Positions 9,127 through 33,639 of a stretch of DNA of 38,363 nucleotides are shown piece by piece. Source of the DNA: Anaerolineae bacterium (lineage in GTDB: Bacteria; Chloroflexota; Anaerolineae; Promineifilales; Promineifilaceae). Both the position numbers and the translations under genes were made by a program. The DNA is taken from contig WFSA01000168.1 of the NCBI GenBank assembly GCA_015486215.1, positions 1 through 38,363 of the forward strand, given 5' to 3'. Each line of letters opens with the position of its first letter. Position 1 is the first letter of the stretch. The notes beneath the pieces were generated by a model, which saw nothing but the letters and a program-made list of their open reading frames with translations, did not search any database and was not told the DNA's origin.

Positions 9127-9186
9127 GGTGACAGGCACTTGGCAAGTGCCTGTCACCTTGGCCACAGTTATTTACGAGTTTTCCCT
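9127..9186. repeat. 60-bp repeat with a 31-bp palindrome, copy 1
   Basis: A palindrome with 15-bp arms (GGTGACAGGCACTTG / CAAGTGCCTGTCACC) around a single central base is followed by TTGGCCACAGTTATTTACGA and TTTTCCCT. An identical 60-bp copy lies at 26109-26168, 17 kb away, in an unrelated intergenic space. The arm shares GGCAC elements with the menD-menB repeat. Confidence 0.9.
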
Positions 9187-9303
9187 TAACATTAACAGTA
9201 TCCCATTTTAATGTACGCATCGGTGAGGTGTTGTTATGATCCATACTCTCGCTTTAATGGAAGTTGTCCGCTTGCACAAAACAAATAAAAGGAATGCAAC
9301 CCA

Positions 9304-10175: not shown

Positions 10176-10402
10176 GTAACTACTCAGCCTATCAATTATT
10201 TCACCACAAAGAAGCAAAGATTACAAAGAAAATCTCAAAAAACTTCGTATTCTTCGTGTCTTTGTGGTTAATTTGGACAATGACTGAGTATCTTCTCAAT
10301 AAATCGTGGACAAGAGTTGACAAATTTCATCAGCACTTTATTTTTAGGAAAATTTGTCAAGTCTCCCCAGAATACTGAGAAGATACATGGCTGAGTAGTT
10401 AC
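10176..10402 (+). mobile_element. MITE-like element E1, interrupted by A2
   Basis: Termini GTAACTACTCAGCC (left) and GGCTGAGTAGTTAC (right). It is flanked by a perfect 8-bp duplication ATTTAAAT at 10168-10175 and 10403-10410. The interior is the CACCACAAAGA / TCTTTGTGGTTAA inverted repeat also seen in E2. Element A2 sits in its right end. Without A2 and its duplication E1 is about 120 bp. No ORF. Confidence 0.88.
10288..10386 (+). mobile_element. MITE-like element A2, inserted in E1
   Basis: Family A termini GTATCTTCTCAATA and TACTGAGAAGATAC, 99 bp (13 bp of the middle deleted relative to full-length A). It is flanked by ATGACTGA (10280-10287) and ATGGCTGA (10387-10394), an 8-bp duplication with one change. 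Joining E1 across it restores an end like that of E2. Confidence 0.9.
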
Positions 10403-18963: not shown

Positions 18964-19229
18964 GTATCTTCTCAATAAATCGTGGACAAGGCTTGACAAA
19001 TTTCATCAGCACTTTATTTTACATGAGTATCATGTATCTTCTCAAAAAAGCGGGGACATTATTTTGTTTTTAGTATGACTACAGCGGATCATGAAAATGA
19101 ACGGATGCTTTCTCGACTGCTCTATCCGTTTATTTCTTTCATCCGTTGTAGTCACCCCGAAATATTGAGAAGTTACAGTATCATTAGGAAAATTTGTCAA
19201 GTCTTGCCCCCAACTTTTTGAGAAGTTAT
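18964..19229 (+). mobile_element. MITE-like element A3, interrupted by B2, with C-type right end
   Basis: The left half (18964-19033) is family A from GTATCTTCTCAATA to GAGTATCAT; the right part resumes after B2 with AGTATCATTAGG and GAAAATTTGTCAAGTCTTG, then switches to GCCCCCAACTTTTTGAGAAG, which is the left end of family C read in reverse. A3 is therefore a chimera of A and C ends. No target duplication was found around the whole. Confidence 0.85.
19034..19176 (+). mobile_element. MITE-like element B2 (143 bp), inserted in A3
   Basis: Begins GTATCTTCTCAAAAAAGCGG, ends ATATTGAGAAGTTAC. The perfect 8-bp duplication AGTATCAT at 19026-19033 and 19177-19184 splits a site that is intact (once) in A1 and A6. 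This is direct evidence of transposition into an A element. Confidence 0.95.
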
Positions 19230-24475: not shown

Positions 24476-24716
24476 GTAACTTCTCAAAAAGTTGGGGGCA
24501 TGATTGTAGCTAATTAGGAAAGGAACGAATTTACTCGACTCGTAATTTGTCCCTTTCTTAATTGGGTATAATCACCCCGAAATACTGAGAAGATGGTATC
24601 TTCTCAGTATTCTGGGGAGACTTGACAAATTTTCCTGATGATACTCGTGTAAAATAAAGTGCTGATGAAATTTGTCAAGTCTTGTCCACGATTTATTGAG
24701 AAGATACAGAAGGTAC
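24476..24716 (+). mobile_element. MITE-like element C, interrupted at its right end by A4
   Basis: Begins GTAACTTCTCAAAAAGTTGG and reads to CACCCCGAAATACTGAGAAG; the last base of its right terminus lies beyond A4 (24716). Flanks ATTAAAAG (24468-24475) and ATCAAAAG (24717-24724) form an 8-bp duplication with one change. The inner inverted repeat is AATTAGGAAAGGAACGAATT / AATTTGTCCCTTTCTTAATT. Length without A4 is about 121 bp. Confidence 0.85.
24596..24707 (-). mobile_element. MITE-like element A4 (112 bp), inserted in C
   Basis: Full-length family A in reverse orientation: GTATCTTCTCAGTATTCTGG to TTTATTGAGAAGATAC. Flanks AGAAGATG (24588-24595) and AGAAGGTA (24708-24715) match at 6 of 8, consistent with an aged duplication of C's terminal AGAAGRTA. 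Confidence 0.85.
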
Positions 24717-24731
24717 ATCAAAAGGTTTGCT

Positions 24732-24846
24732 TTACAATTCGTGAAAAAATCTGGGGAGACTTGACAAATTTTCCTGATGGTACTCGTGTAAAATAAAGTG
24801 CTGATGAAATTTGTCAAGTCTTGTCCATTACAATTCGTGAAAAAAT
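24732..24846 (-). mobile_element. A5: family A core between 19-bp direct repeats
   Basis: The core 24751-24827 (CTGGGGAGACTTGACAAA to AAGTCTTGTCCA) equals the inside of A4 without the GTATCTTCTCA termini. It is flanked by identical TTACAATTCGTGAAAAAAT at 24732-24750 and 24828-24846. A 19-bp repeat and missing termini differ from all other copies, implying a different origin (recombination or a second mobilisation route). Confidence 0.85.
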
Positions 24847-24909
24847 AGAATGCAGGATAAACGTAGATTTCTTTGTTTTAGGCCATTCATGAAAAATAAT
24901 TACACGTTT

Positions 24910-26108: not shown

Positions 26109-26168
26109 GGTGACAGGCACTTGGCAAGTGCCTGTCACCTTGGCCACAGTTATTTACGAGTTTTCCCT
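26109..26168. repeat. 60-bp repeat with a 31-bp palindrome, copy 2
   Basis: Identical over 60 bp to 9127-9186: 15-bp arms GGTGACAGGCACTTG / CAAGTGCCTGTCACC plus the same 29-bp tail. It lies between xseB and ftsY. Confidence 0.9.
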
Positions 26169-26238
26169 AAATGGCTGGAGGGTGAGCTAGAGGATGCCGT
26201 ATAATCTCTTCTGGGTCTAGCTGACCTTTCCAGTTTCT

Positions 26239-28460: not shown

Positions 28461-30692
28461 TTATTTTTGTAAAACTTGTTTGAACCAAAGAATGGCAACT
28501 TCGCCCTCTTTGCGGGTGATCTCATTTACTCTACGGCTATGACGAATTCCATTACGTAATTCTGCTAATTGTTCAAATTTAAAATTTAATGCGTCTTTAT
28601 TAGCAAAGCGTGGCTCAAAGAGTTTCCACAAAGCCTTGTTCGTAATGGTGTCTTGTATTTCTCTCAAATCAAAATATTCAAGAGTTCCGTCTAGTGTTTG
28701 GTAATCTCCTGCATTGAGAGTCGCATTTTTACGCACAGCTCGTTGAATACGTTCTTTAACTTTTGCTGAAACATGACTAGGAACTCGTGTAGGGTCATTT
28801 TCTAAAGTGCTGGCAACAATTGATCGTAATTCTAACTCGACCCATTCGATTTCTTCATCTAGTTCTCGTAATTTTGGGGTTAAGCCTAGACGTTCTTTAA
28901 CCAGTAAGTAATTGATAGCATCCTGAATAGTACGTTGCCTTTCATTGATAAACAACTCAAAGTCTTCGGACGTAAATGGTTTTCGCATCAGAATTTCTTG
29001 AGCAATGGGCGAGATGAAATGGGATTCAAGAATTGTACGCACATGATCCTCACCATTTTCAGCAATTAGTAGAGGAAGATATTCGTTAGGTAGTTGTGTG
29101 TTAATTACCTTACGATTAGTTTCTTGGGTAAGTGGTGTGCGATTTAGAATCGTATTGATAATGTTACCGTCTAAATGCTCTTTCCCCCATGATTTTGGAA
29201 TGATATGGTGAGCATCAAGGTCATCATGTAAAGGTATATTTCCTGTCATCCAGTCACGCGCACCCTGTATTACTAAAAGATTAAAGATGCCGTTGTATAC
29301 CGATGTACCAAGTCTGGTTTCTTTAGATAAATTTAAGTTACGGAAACGATCTTTAAATTCCTGTAGTAAAGCAGGTCTGGTGTCATCATCATCTATCCAC
29401 GCTGTCATATCAAGAAAATCACGGGCGCTAGTTGACTCAACTGAGCCCGAATACCGATTAGTGAAAACAGATGCCCAATACCAATGACGTACTTTTCGCT
29501 GAGCATTCAACTGTTTATTAGCTGGCAATGCTTTGACATGAGTTTGAATAGATGCGAACACAGGAAGGATTGATACATATGGTAAATATTTTGAGGAAAT
29601 AACACCAAATTCTTGCGGATGGCGGAGCATGTTAATGGCATCTTCTAGTGCATTAACAGCAGTGTCCCATAGTTCTGAAAAAGCACTTGTGGTAGGTACA
29701 AGTACTTCTTTACGACGGGTTCCATCAGGTTCACGAATGGGTTTCTTCTCGCCTGGCAATAAGAAGTAGAGGTATTTGGGCGAACAATAAGCCTGCCGAA
29801 GGATAGACATAACTTGTAGGATGTAGACATTCATCTTTTTCGTTTCGACGAATTCTAATCGTGGGGCAGCTGCTCTCCACATGCTCTTTAATGGCAACCC
29901 TTTTGGTCTAAGTAACGCATTTAATAAATCAAACACATCTAAGCGAACGCCACGACTGTTGATTTGTGTGAATATATCGCAGACCTTATCAATCTCAATA
30001 TCTTTATCTAATTCGATATAAGAGATTTGGTATTGTTCGGTAATTTCTTTGAGATATACGCCAAACGCTTTGGCATTGATACTGTGCTGAGTAGCCTCCT
30101 CCATGACAATGTTATTGCCATTGTTTTTTGCTTCTAATGTTTGTTTTTTCCAGTATTGCTCGTATCCTTGAACCCAATTAGGCAAATCCCATCCGCCAGC
30201 ACCAATTACTGACAGTGGAAAAATATGAGTAGCGTATTGTGCCTCATCATCATCCAAAAGTGCTACCCATCGTTGACTCAACCAATTATAACTAAACGCC
30301 TCGTCGTAATCCTCTGACATGAATTTATCAACATGAATAAAATAGAAGGCTTTACTAGCTCGATTTGGCAGAGGAACATCAGGGGAAAGGAATGCGTAGA
30401 ATATGGCTGTCAGGCGTTGTTGCCCATCGAGTACAATATATTCGGGTGAACCTTTTTCTGCAAAACCGTAGACAGGCTCGCAGGATAATGCTTCAAAATT
30501 CCCTTCCTTTCCTTTCCATAATAGTAAACTACCAATGTAATAATCAAGGAAAATAGAGCGCATTAACTCTTGAATATCCCACGGCTTCCACTCAAATTCG
30601 CGCTGAAAATCTGGAATAACGAAGCGTCCATCACGAAGACGGTGTATGAGTGTGTTGAGGCTGATATGGTCTGGTTTTTGTGCATCTTTCAT
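28461..30692 (-). CDS. DUF262 / HNH nuclease / HEPN-like fusion, candidate defence protein
   Basis: 743 residues. Residues ~1-260 are a DUF262 (GmrS/ParB-like) domain: IPDFQREFEW (26-35), VLDGQQRLTAI (87-97), FTQINSRG (241-248). A DUF1524-type HNH nuclease follows, with DAHHIIPKSW (493-502) and an Asn-rich end. The C-terminus (about 675-743) ends in FEQLAELRNGIRHSR; the R713-x4-H718 spacing fits a HEPN ribonuclease motif. DUF262-HNH proteins include type IV restriction enzymes (GmrSD) and phosphorothioate-linked SspE, so phage defence is likely; the added HEPN-like domain is less usual. GGGAG precedes the start. AT-rich, with no ACGGCCGT site, unlike its neighbours. Confidence 0.8.
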   Translation of the reverse strand: MKDAQKPDHISLNTLIHRLRDGRFVIPDFQREFEWKPWDIQELMRSIFLDYYIGSLLLWKGKEGNFEALSCEPVYGFAEKGSPEYIVLDGQQRLTAIFYAFLSPDVPLPNRASKAFYFIHVDKFMSEDYDEAFSYNWLSQRWVALLDDDEAQYATHIFPLSVIGAGGWDLPNWVQGYEQYWKKQTLEAKNNGNNIVMEEATQHSINAKAFGVYLKEITEQYQISYIELDKDIEIDKVCDIFTQINSRGVRLDVFDLLNALLRPKGLPLKSMWRAAAPRLEFVETKKMNVYILQVMSILRQAYCSPKYLYFLLPGEKKPIREPDGTRRKEVLVPTTSAFSELWDTAVNALEDAINMLRHPQEFGVISSKYLPYVSILPVFASIQTHVKALPANKQLNAQRKVRHWYWASVFTNRYSGSVESTSARDFLDMTAWIDDDDTRPALLQEFKDRFRNLNLSKETRLGTSVYNGIFNLLVIQGARDWMTGNIPLHDDLDAHHIIPKSWGKEHLDGNIINTILNRTPLTQETNRKVINTQLPNEYLPLLIAENGEDHVRTILESHFISPIAQEILMRKPFTSEDFELFINERQRTIQDAINYLLVKERLGLTPKLRELDEEIEWVELELRSIVASTLENDPTRVPSHVSAKVKERIQRAVRKNATLNAGDYQTLDGTLEYFDLREIQDTITNKALWKLFEPRFANKDALNFKFEQLAELRNGIRHSRRVNEITRKEGEVAILWFKQVLQK

Positions 30693-32834: not shown

Positions 32835-33012
32835 ATCATTCTCCCCATTTTTCTTCATAATCGATCATACGATGAGTATAAATTGTTATTGACATTTTGT
32901 AAAAGCATAACGAAACACAAATTCCCTCACCTAGTACTGCTTGGCCTAAGGTTTTCTGTAGTGCAATTTTGTAAAATTGCACGGTCAATCTTACAAAACA
33001 GCCTCGCCTTAA

Positions 33013-33070
33013 TTCGTGATCGTTTTCGTGATCGAAAATCGAAAAAATCGATCACGAAAACGATCACGAA
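33013..33070. repeat. CGTGATCG-type inverted repeat, copy 2
   Basis: Perfect 22-bp arms at 33013-33034 (TTCGTGATCGTTTTCGTGAT then CG) and 33049-33070, separated by 14 nt. Same word as 27716-27783. Confidence 0.88.
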
Positions 33071-33250
33071 ATACGACAGCGACAACCATAACGCATAAAT
33101 CTCCCCTCAATTCACATGTTATGTCAATTGTCTAGGATTTAACATTGCGATTTGGAGGTTACAATCGCCCTATTCCTCACCTTGAAATTTCATCAAAAAC
33201 AACGTAGAATCTATCGCTTCACAATGGTATGTTAATACATTCTACCGTAA

Positions 33251-33362
33251 GTATCTTCCCAATAAATCGTGGACAAGAGTTGACAAATTTCATCAGCATT
33301 TTATTTTACACGAGTATCATTAGGAAAATTTGTCAAGTCACCCCAGAATACTGAGAAGATAC
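33251..33362 (+). mobile_element. MITE-like element A6 (112 bp), inserted in the end of B4
   Basis: GTATCTTCCCAATAAATCG to AGAATACTGAGAAGATAC. The perfect 8-bp duplication TACCGTAA is at 33243-33250 and 33363-33370; its last four bases are the first four bases (GTAA) of element B4, so A6 entered the left boundary of B4. Confidence 0.95.
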
Positions 33363-33366
33363 TACC

Positions 33367-33509
33367 GTAACTTCTCAATATTTCGGGGTGACTACAACGG
33401 ATGAAAGAAATAAACGGATGGTGCAGTCAAGAAAGCATCCGCTCATTTTCATAATTCGCTGTAGTCATACTAAAAACAAAATAATTTCCCCGCTTTTTTG
33501 AGAAGATAC
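33367..33509 (-). mobile_element. MITE-like element B4 (143 bp), reverse orientation
   Basis: Reads GTAACTTCTCAATATTTCGG to CTTTTTTGAGAAGATAC. Once A6 and one duplication are removed, the flanks are ATTCTACC (left, before the GTAA now at 33247) and GTTCTACC (33510-33517), an 8-bp duplication with one change. B4 is therefore older than A6. Confidence 0.92.
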
Positions 33510-33639
33510 GTTCTACCATATAAACGGCGTTACCCAACGCAAAGGAGCAGCCTGACAACAAACCAAGCCCCACTTTTTATTCCATAGTAACGATAGCACA
33601 ATTTCATGGGCAACCTGCCCACCACATAACAGGAGAAAA

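Follow-up and report, generated by a model that had tools for sequence, protein, structure and literature searches.

The window analyzed here, a stretch of 38,363 nucleotides, is one contig (WFSA01000168.1) of a metagenome-assembled genome (MAG) of an Anaerolineae bacterium (4.13 Mb, 341 contigs, 96% complete). It carries two adjoining short repeats, A6 and B4, between the start of a hydrolase gene and a solute-binding-protein/ATP-binding cassette (ABC) transporter operon. The solute-binding protein has its closest relatives in MAGs of Chloroflexota, including one with the label Ardenticatenaceae; the upstream hydrolase shows no synteny in relatives of the solute-binding-protein gene. In related genomes, a promoter-like motif (TTTGAAATCTCATC...GCGTAAAATT) lies ~100–250 bp upstream of that gene; in the window, the A6/B4 pair is situated just downstream of this motif, and two stacked hairpins now separate the conserved motif from the start of the operon.

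Structure and insertion order of A6 and B4

Both repeats have the hallmarks of miniature inverted-repeat transposable elements (MITEs). They are short (under ~500 bp), lack a transposase gene, possess terminal inverted repeats (TIRs; GTATCTTCCCA.../...TGAGAAGATAC in A6 and GTAACTTCTCA.../...TGAGAAGATAC in B4), are flanked by target-site duplications (TSDs) of a fixed 8 bp and belong to families with dispersed mobile copies (Table 1). Among the open reading frames (ORFs) of the window, none of at least 80 amino acids lies wholly inside A6 or B4.

Table 1. Nested MITEs and their target-site duplications in the window
Feature	Start	End	Strand	Remarks
B4 left TSD, ATTCTACC	33239	33246		Read from sequence; 7/8 vs 33510–33517 once A6 is removed
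A6 left TSD, TACCGTAA	33243	33250		Four outer bases plus first four of B4; exact match to 33363–33370
A6, 112-bp MITE, TIR GTATCTTCYCA, hairpin-forming, no ORF	33251	33362	+	96.4% to A consensus over 112 bp; fold z = -4.2
A6 right TSD, TACCGTAA	33363	33370		Last four bases are first four of B4 as now joined
B4, 143-bp MITE, family B, host of A6	33367	33509	+	96.5% to B consensus, A6 removed; fold z = -6.65
B4 right TSD, GTTCTACC	33510	33517		Read from sequence
A element split at AGTATCAT by B (19034–19176, minus strand)	18964	19229	+	Right-hand A remainder chimeric/decayed
A (10288–10386, 99 bp, internally deleted) inside a D-family MITE	10176	10402	+	D host 96.7% over 1–120, A removed

An earlier note on this DNA had proposed that A6 entered the end of B4, and the duplications bear this out. 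The exact 8-bp repeat around A6 spans four outer bases and GTAA, the first four bases of B4, which are present in both copies (33247–33250 and 33367–33370); the chance that eight bases match exactly at a given position is ~1.5e-5. When A6 and one copy of its duplication were deleted in silico, an intact 143-bp B4 resulted, matching the B consensus from end to end and flanked by repeats identical at seven of eight positions. Had A6 preceded B4 and B4 inserted next to it, with the match of the duplications a coincidence, the exact repeat of A6 would have to contain the first four bases of B4 by chance (~1/256), and GTAA would be expected to the right of the right-hand repeat of B4, where the sequence in fact reads ATAT. 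With A6 kept in place the flanks of B4 still match at six of eight positions (ATACTACC/GTTCTACC), but removal of A6 raises this match to seven, and we give the A6-first order practically no credence. The reverse order, in which B4 inserted first and A6 later at its left end, is secure.

The adjacency could also have arisen if A6–B4 had moved whole as one compound unit, instead of by nesting at this locus. Indeed, another locus (L086/C205) has an A element at the matching -4/+4 position of a B element, with the orientation unchanged, and at four loci with differing outer duplications a D element holds a C element, always at one position and in one orientation. However, the inner duplications of the two A–B pairs differ (TACCGTAA in the window, CTGTGTAG in L086), so that two separate insertions are needed, and other B copies carry A at other offsets. 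Moreover, the outer ends of the window pair have no duplication in common (TACCGTAA to the left of A6, GTTCTACC to the right of B4), which refutes compound movement for A6–B4; as an account of this pair we consider it highly improbable.

The earlier note had further held A6 to be the younger copy, given an identical duplication around A6 and one mismatch in that of B4. While the order stands by topology, dating by the mismatch is weak, because the TSDs of A and B average 0.14 and 0.17 mismatches, respectively, and a single one therefore carries little age information. The comparison with the family consensus that had been proposed as a check proved uninformative for dating, as both copies are equally distant (4/112 or 3.6% for A6; 5/143 or 3.5% for B4); divergence leaves the two copies undated, and it is topology alone that gives their order. 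At the level of families, mean divergence (2.3% for A, 4.0% for B) fits an on average older family B. Homologous leaders in related Chloroflexota lack A6 and B4, and a relative with B4 only was not found among them; the joined A6/B4 flanks align, albeit loosely, with two such MITE-free leaders (L149 and L150).

MITE families and their reciprocal nesting

The elements fall into family A (112 bp), the A-related A' (114 bp), B (143 bp), the B-like C (123 bp) and D (120 bp), which has different ends. All five produce 8-bp duplications, and the TSDs differ from copy to copy. The GTAWCTTCTCA ends are matched 22 times in the window, compared to 0.79 matches expected, and across the genome the TIR pattern GTAWCTTCTCARWA has 1277 exact matches, compared to none for a reversed control. 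The second end type, GTAACTACTCAG of family D, has 212 genome matches. Elements were called by a TIR pair plus an 8-bp duplication matching at no fewer than seven of eight positions; in the first 0.65 Mb this rule yielded 135 elements, versus ~1 at offset control positions, and in the ~1.07 Mb sampled from the MAG (26% of the genome) it yielded 207.

Genome-wide totals were extrapolated from an unbiased part of this sample, 0.73 Mb taken by contig number, with 129 intact TSD-bearing elements and 246 MITE segments. MITEs account for 3.4% of the DNA and ~15% of the estimated non-coding DNA. Like Chunjie and other bacterial MITEs, these elements are short, TIR-bounded, intergenic, hairpin-forming and present in high copy number. 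For ERIC, up to 711 copies are documented in Photorhabdus (reviewed in PMC10969869), while we estimate ~730 intact TSD-bearing copies and ~1,400 segments in 4.1 Mb, from at least five families. Matches occurred in five of 39 related genomes searched, and A- or B-like copies extending over most of the element length in only two of these (G010 and G012). A literature search gave no published match to the GTAWCTTCTCA-type ends, and comparison of the hairpins with Rfam gave only sub-threshold microRNA (miRNA)-type matches. The elements represent MITE families that are new but of a known kind; their copy number is unusually high and their nesting pattern unusually amenable to testing.

In the window, the earlier note had also described a B element inside an A element at 19 kb; this insertion is real and duplicated AGTATCAT. 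A third nesting, at 10176–10402, has the TSD ATGACTGA/ATGGCTGA, and its D host has GTAACTACTCAG ends and the TSD ATTTAAAT. Of the elements with TSDs in the 1.07 Mb, 26 are located within another MITE or across its edge: B in A (four), A' in A (four), A in B (three), an A'-bearing A in B (one), A, A', B or C in C or D (13) and an unclassified element in C (one), with the A/B nestings inflated at loci L067–L086, which were chosen for matching an A6–B4 query. The reciprocal nesting of A and B that the note had proposed was thereby recovered at independent loci elsewhere (A in B at three, B in A at four, plus A' in A in B), and the periods in which A and B were mobile therefore overlapped, as the note had concluded. 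Guests include all of A, A', B and C. D was seen as a host and never as a guest, which suggests that D is the oldest family or is no longer moved. Since a host is always older than its guest, nested MITEs provide a relative clock in an uncultured lineage, and the copy number in this one 4-Mb genome gives enough nestings to order whole families.

Three loci are triple nests, with A' in A in B at L068 and A in C in D at L205 (C35) and L206 (C129). At the latter two, D holds C at the same site and in the same orientation, and an A element later entered each C boundary, in opposite orientations, so that this triple nest arose twice; L065 and L217 carry the same arrangement of C in D without A. The outer duplications differ among these four loci, and the C copies within D come from a single C subfamily, yet some free C copies are equally close to them. 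As far as can be read from these sequences, compound movement and repeated insertion would fit the data alike and cannot be told apart.

Two further arrangements of A copies were observed. In the window, two same-strand copies, the second partial, lie 139 bp apart (24596–24850). At L059 (2652–3570), two copies lie ~800 bp apart, with the 8-bp GATAATTG flanking the pair on either side and recurring behind the first copy; this pair is composite-transposon-like or a duplication.

Target-site preference and insertion at element ends

Nested elements made up 16 of the 129 in the unbiased part of the sample, from which alone the rate was computed. This share (12.4%) comes near the ~15% that random insertion into non-coding DNA would give, and the nesting rate therefore needs no special attraction. 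It would be compatible with tolerance only, whereby insertions into genes are lost and copies pile up in older ones with no sequence preference. The landing positions argue otherwise. All eight insertions in A lie at bases 62–63, and base 63 received four guest/orientation combinations (A' and B, each in both orientations), indicating that the site was reused repeatedly and not copied from one event.

A symmetric (palindromic) target profile was trained on 159 non-nested sites only and applied to the reconstructed empty sites of the nested elements. It approximates TTTnAAG-N(W)6N-CTTnAAA, with TTT at -7 to -5, AA at -3 and -2 and an AT-rich duplication, mirrored on the right. True nested sites reached a median percentile of 2.7%, and the A6 site ranked 5th of 317. 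Collapsed to 15 distinct host sites, the enrichment remained strong (p = 2.7e-9), and the profile far outperformed AT content alone as a predictor (p = 0.0002); it failed to explain the nested sites at C base 69 and D base 105. Landing positions are thus shown to be non-random, with a palindromic preference that predicts where in, or at the edge of, an older MITE a new copy inserts. Tolerance explains the overall nesting rate but, as a full explanation, is refuted by the positional data, and we consider it improbable.

In five insertions, the 8-bp target is centred exactly on a host end, with four bases outside and four inside: A6 in the window and those at L086 (CTGT|GTAG), L063, identical to L205 (CAAA|GTGT), L206 (CAAA|GTxx, 6/8, in the orientation opposite to L205) and L071 (CAAT|GTAT). 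The count of five is not a rate, as L086, L071 and L206 come from regions picked for a query match or unusual spacing. Ends of A, A', B and C joined to their real outer flanks fall in the top 1–3.3% of genome positions by the profile, those of D only in the top 8–10%. Inside the end, GTAW-CTT corresponds to the right half of the profile, and because element ends resemble half of the preferred target in this way, the boundaries of older elements are favourable for insertion. The position of A6 at the end of B4 is accounted for by the profile, without a special mechanism. A bolder version, which we put forward only tentatively and think somewhat doubtful, is that the target half-site mimics the transposon's own ends (GTAW-CTT), such that element ends would be preferred and MITEs would stack end-on by design. 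If true, stacked copies could grow into composite elements able to move as new units.

The pneumococcal BOX, RUP and SPRITE elements are small repeats recorded to insert into one another; as explanations, the authors offered tolerance or a preference for the same sites (Croucher et al. 2011, PMC3049150). The likeness to the MITEs described here lies in this mutual insertion, the sequences themselves apparently being different. The question of tolerance or preference, raised but left open for the pneumococcal repeats, becomes testable with the target profile, by which a shared preference was here tested and separated from tolerance. Escherichia coli IS30 also has dual targets, inserting at a palindromic hot-spot or next to its own inverted repeats (IRs) (PMC9333248). 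However, IS30 makes 2-bp duplications and its end-targeting gives IR–IR junctions in one orientation, while the MITEs described here make 8-bp duplications and insert in both orientations, and their end-targeting follows the same profile as ordinary sites.

A candidate shared transposase

A profile derived from A sites only also predicted B, C and A' sites (median percentiles of 1.2, 4.3 and 5.0%, respectively), and D sites weakly (15%). Together, the common 11-bp ends and the cross-predictive profile argue that one transposase probably acts on A, A', B and C in trans. We therefore consider it probable that A6 and B4 are non-autonomous MITEs, that B4 inserted first and A6 then on its left end, that both were moved by one transposase acting in trans, and that junctions at old ends are good targets. 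In this scenario, B4 inserted between the promoter-like motif and the start of the operon, and A6 subsequently landed on the left end of B4; a transposase supplied by an autonomous element would recognize the GTAWCTTCTCA ends common to A, A', B and C, and old ends, by half-mimicking its preferred target, would serve as landing sites.

Alternatively, several transposases with similar preferences could have been at work, in which case overlap in time would say nothing about a shared mobilizer. Family D, with its different ends and weaker profile match, would suit such a situation; yet A, A', B and C have in common their 11-bp ends, 8-bp duplications and a target profile by which each group's sites can be predicted, and for these families we regard several transposases as unlikely.

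Several observations, besides the query-based choice of loci mentioned above, weigh against the favoured scenario. An autonomous partner with matching ends is usual for MITEs, though the label does not demand one. No such partner was found; in the sampled 26% of the genome no element with TIRs and TSD exceeded 919 bp, and the element of that length itself starts and finishes with an A copy. The assembly lacks Pfam IS66 (PF03050), ISL3, IS1595, IS256 and DDE_Tnp_1_6 transposases, and its DDE_Tnp_1 genes are without GTAWCTTCTCA-type ends. Multi-copy insertion sequences are often missing from MAGs, and this assembly is fragmented. A search for ORFs flanked by the MITE ends, and for isolated ends in the relatives G010, G013 and G014, led only to other MITE subfamilies or ordinary genes.

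Insertion sequences of the IS66 family make 8-bp duplications and have ends beginning with GTA. As the assembly contains no IS66 transposase, we do not claim membership in this family, and for a derivation from ISL3, IS1595 or IS256 the matching transposases are likewise absent. A transposase at L127 (C289) was discarded as a partner, since its flanking 19-bp inverted repeats are unrelated to the MITE ends.

Other repeats and one further gene were noted in the window. Two near-perfect hairpins (33010–33073 and 32950–33003; e.g. TCGTGATCGTTTTCGTGATCG...CGATCACGAAAACGATCACGA) lie between the hydrolase start and A6/B4; they fall outside families A–D and gave only sub-threshold miRNA-type matches in Rfam. 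A palindromic repeat, GGTGACAGGCACTTGGCAAGTGCCTGTCACC, is present at 9127–9189 and 26109–26171 (98% identical over 63 bp), the former beginning just after a truncated A copy, and 93-bp elements of the GGTGACAGTCACTT type in G010 look similar. Finally, a protein with a GmrSD-type N-terminal domain (Pfam PF03235) is encoded at 28461–30692, between lspA and ruvB, and its gene is possibly a phage-restriction gene.
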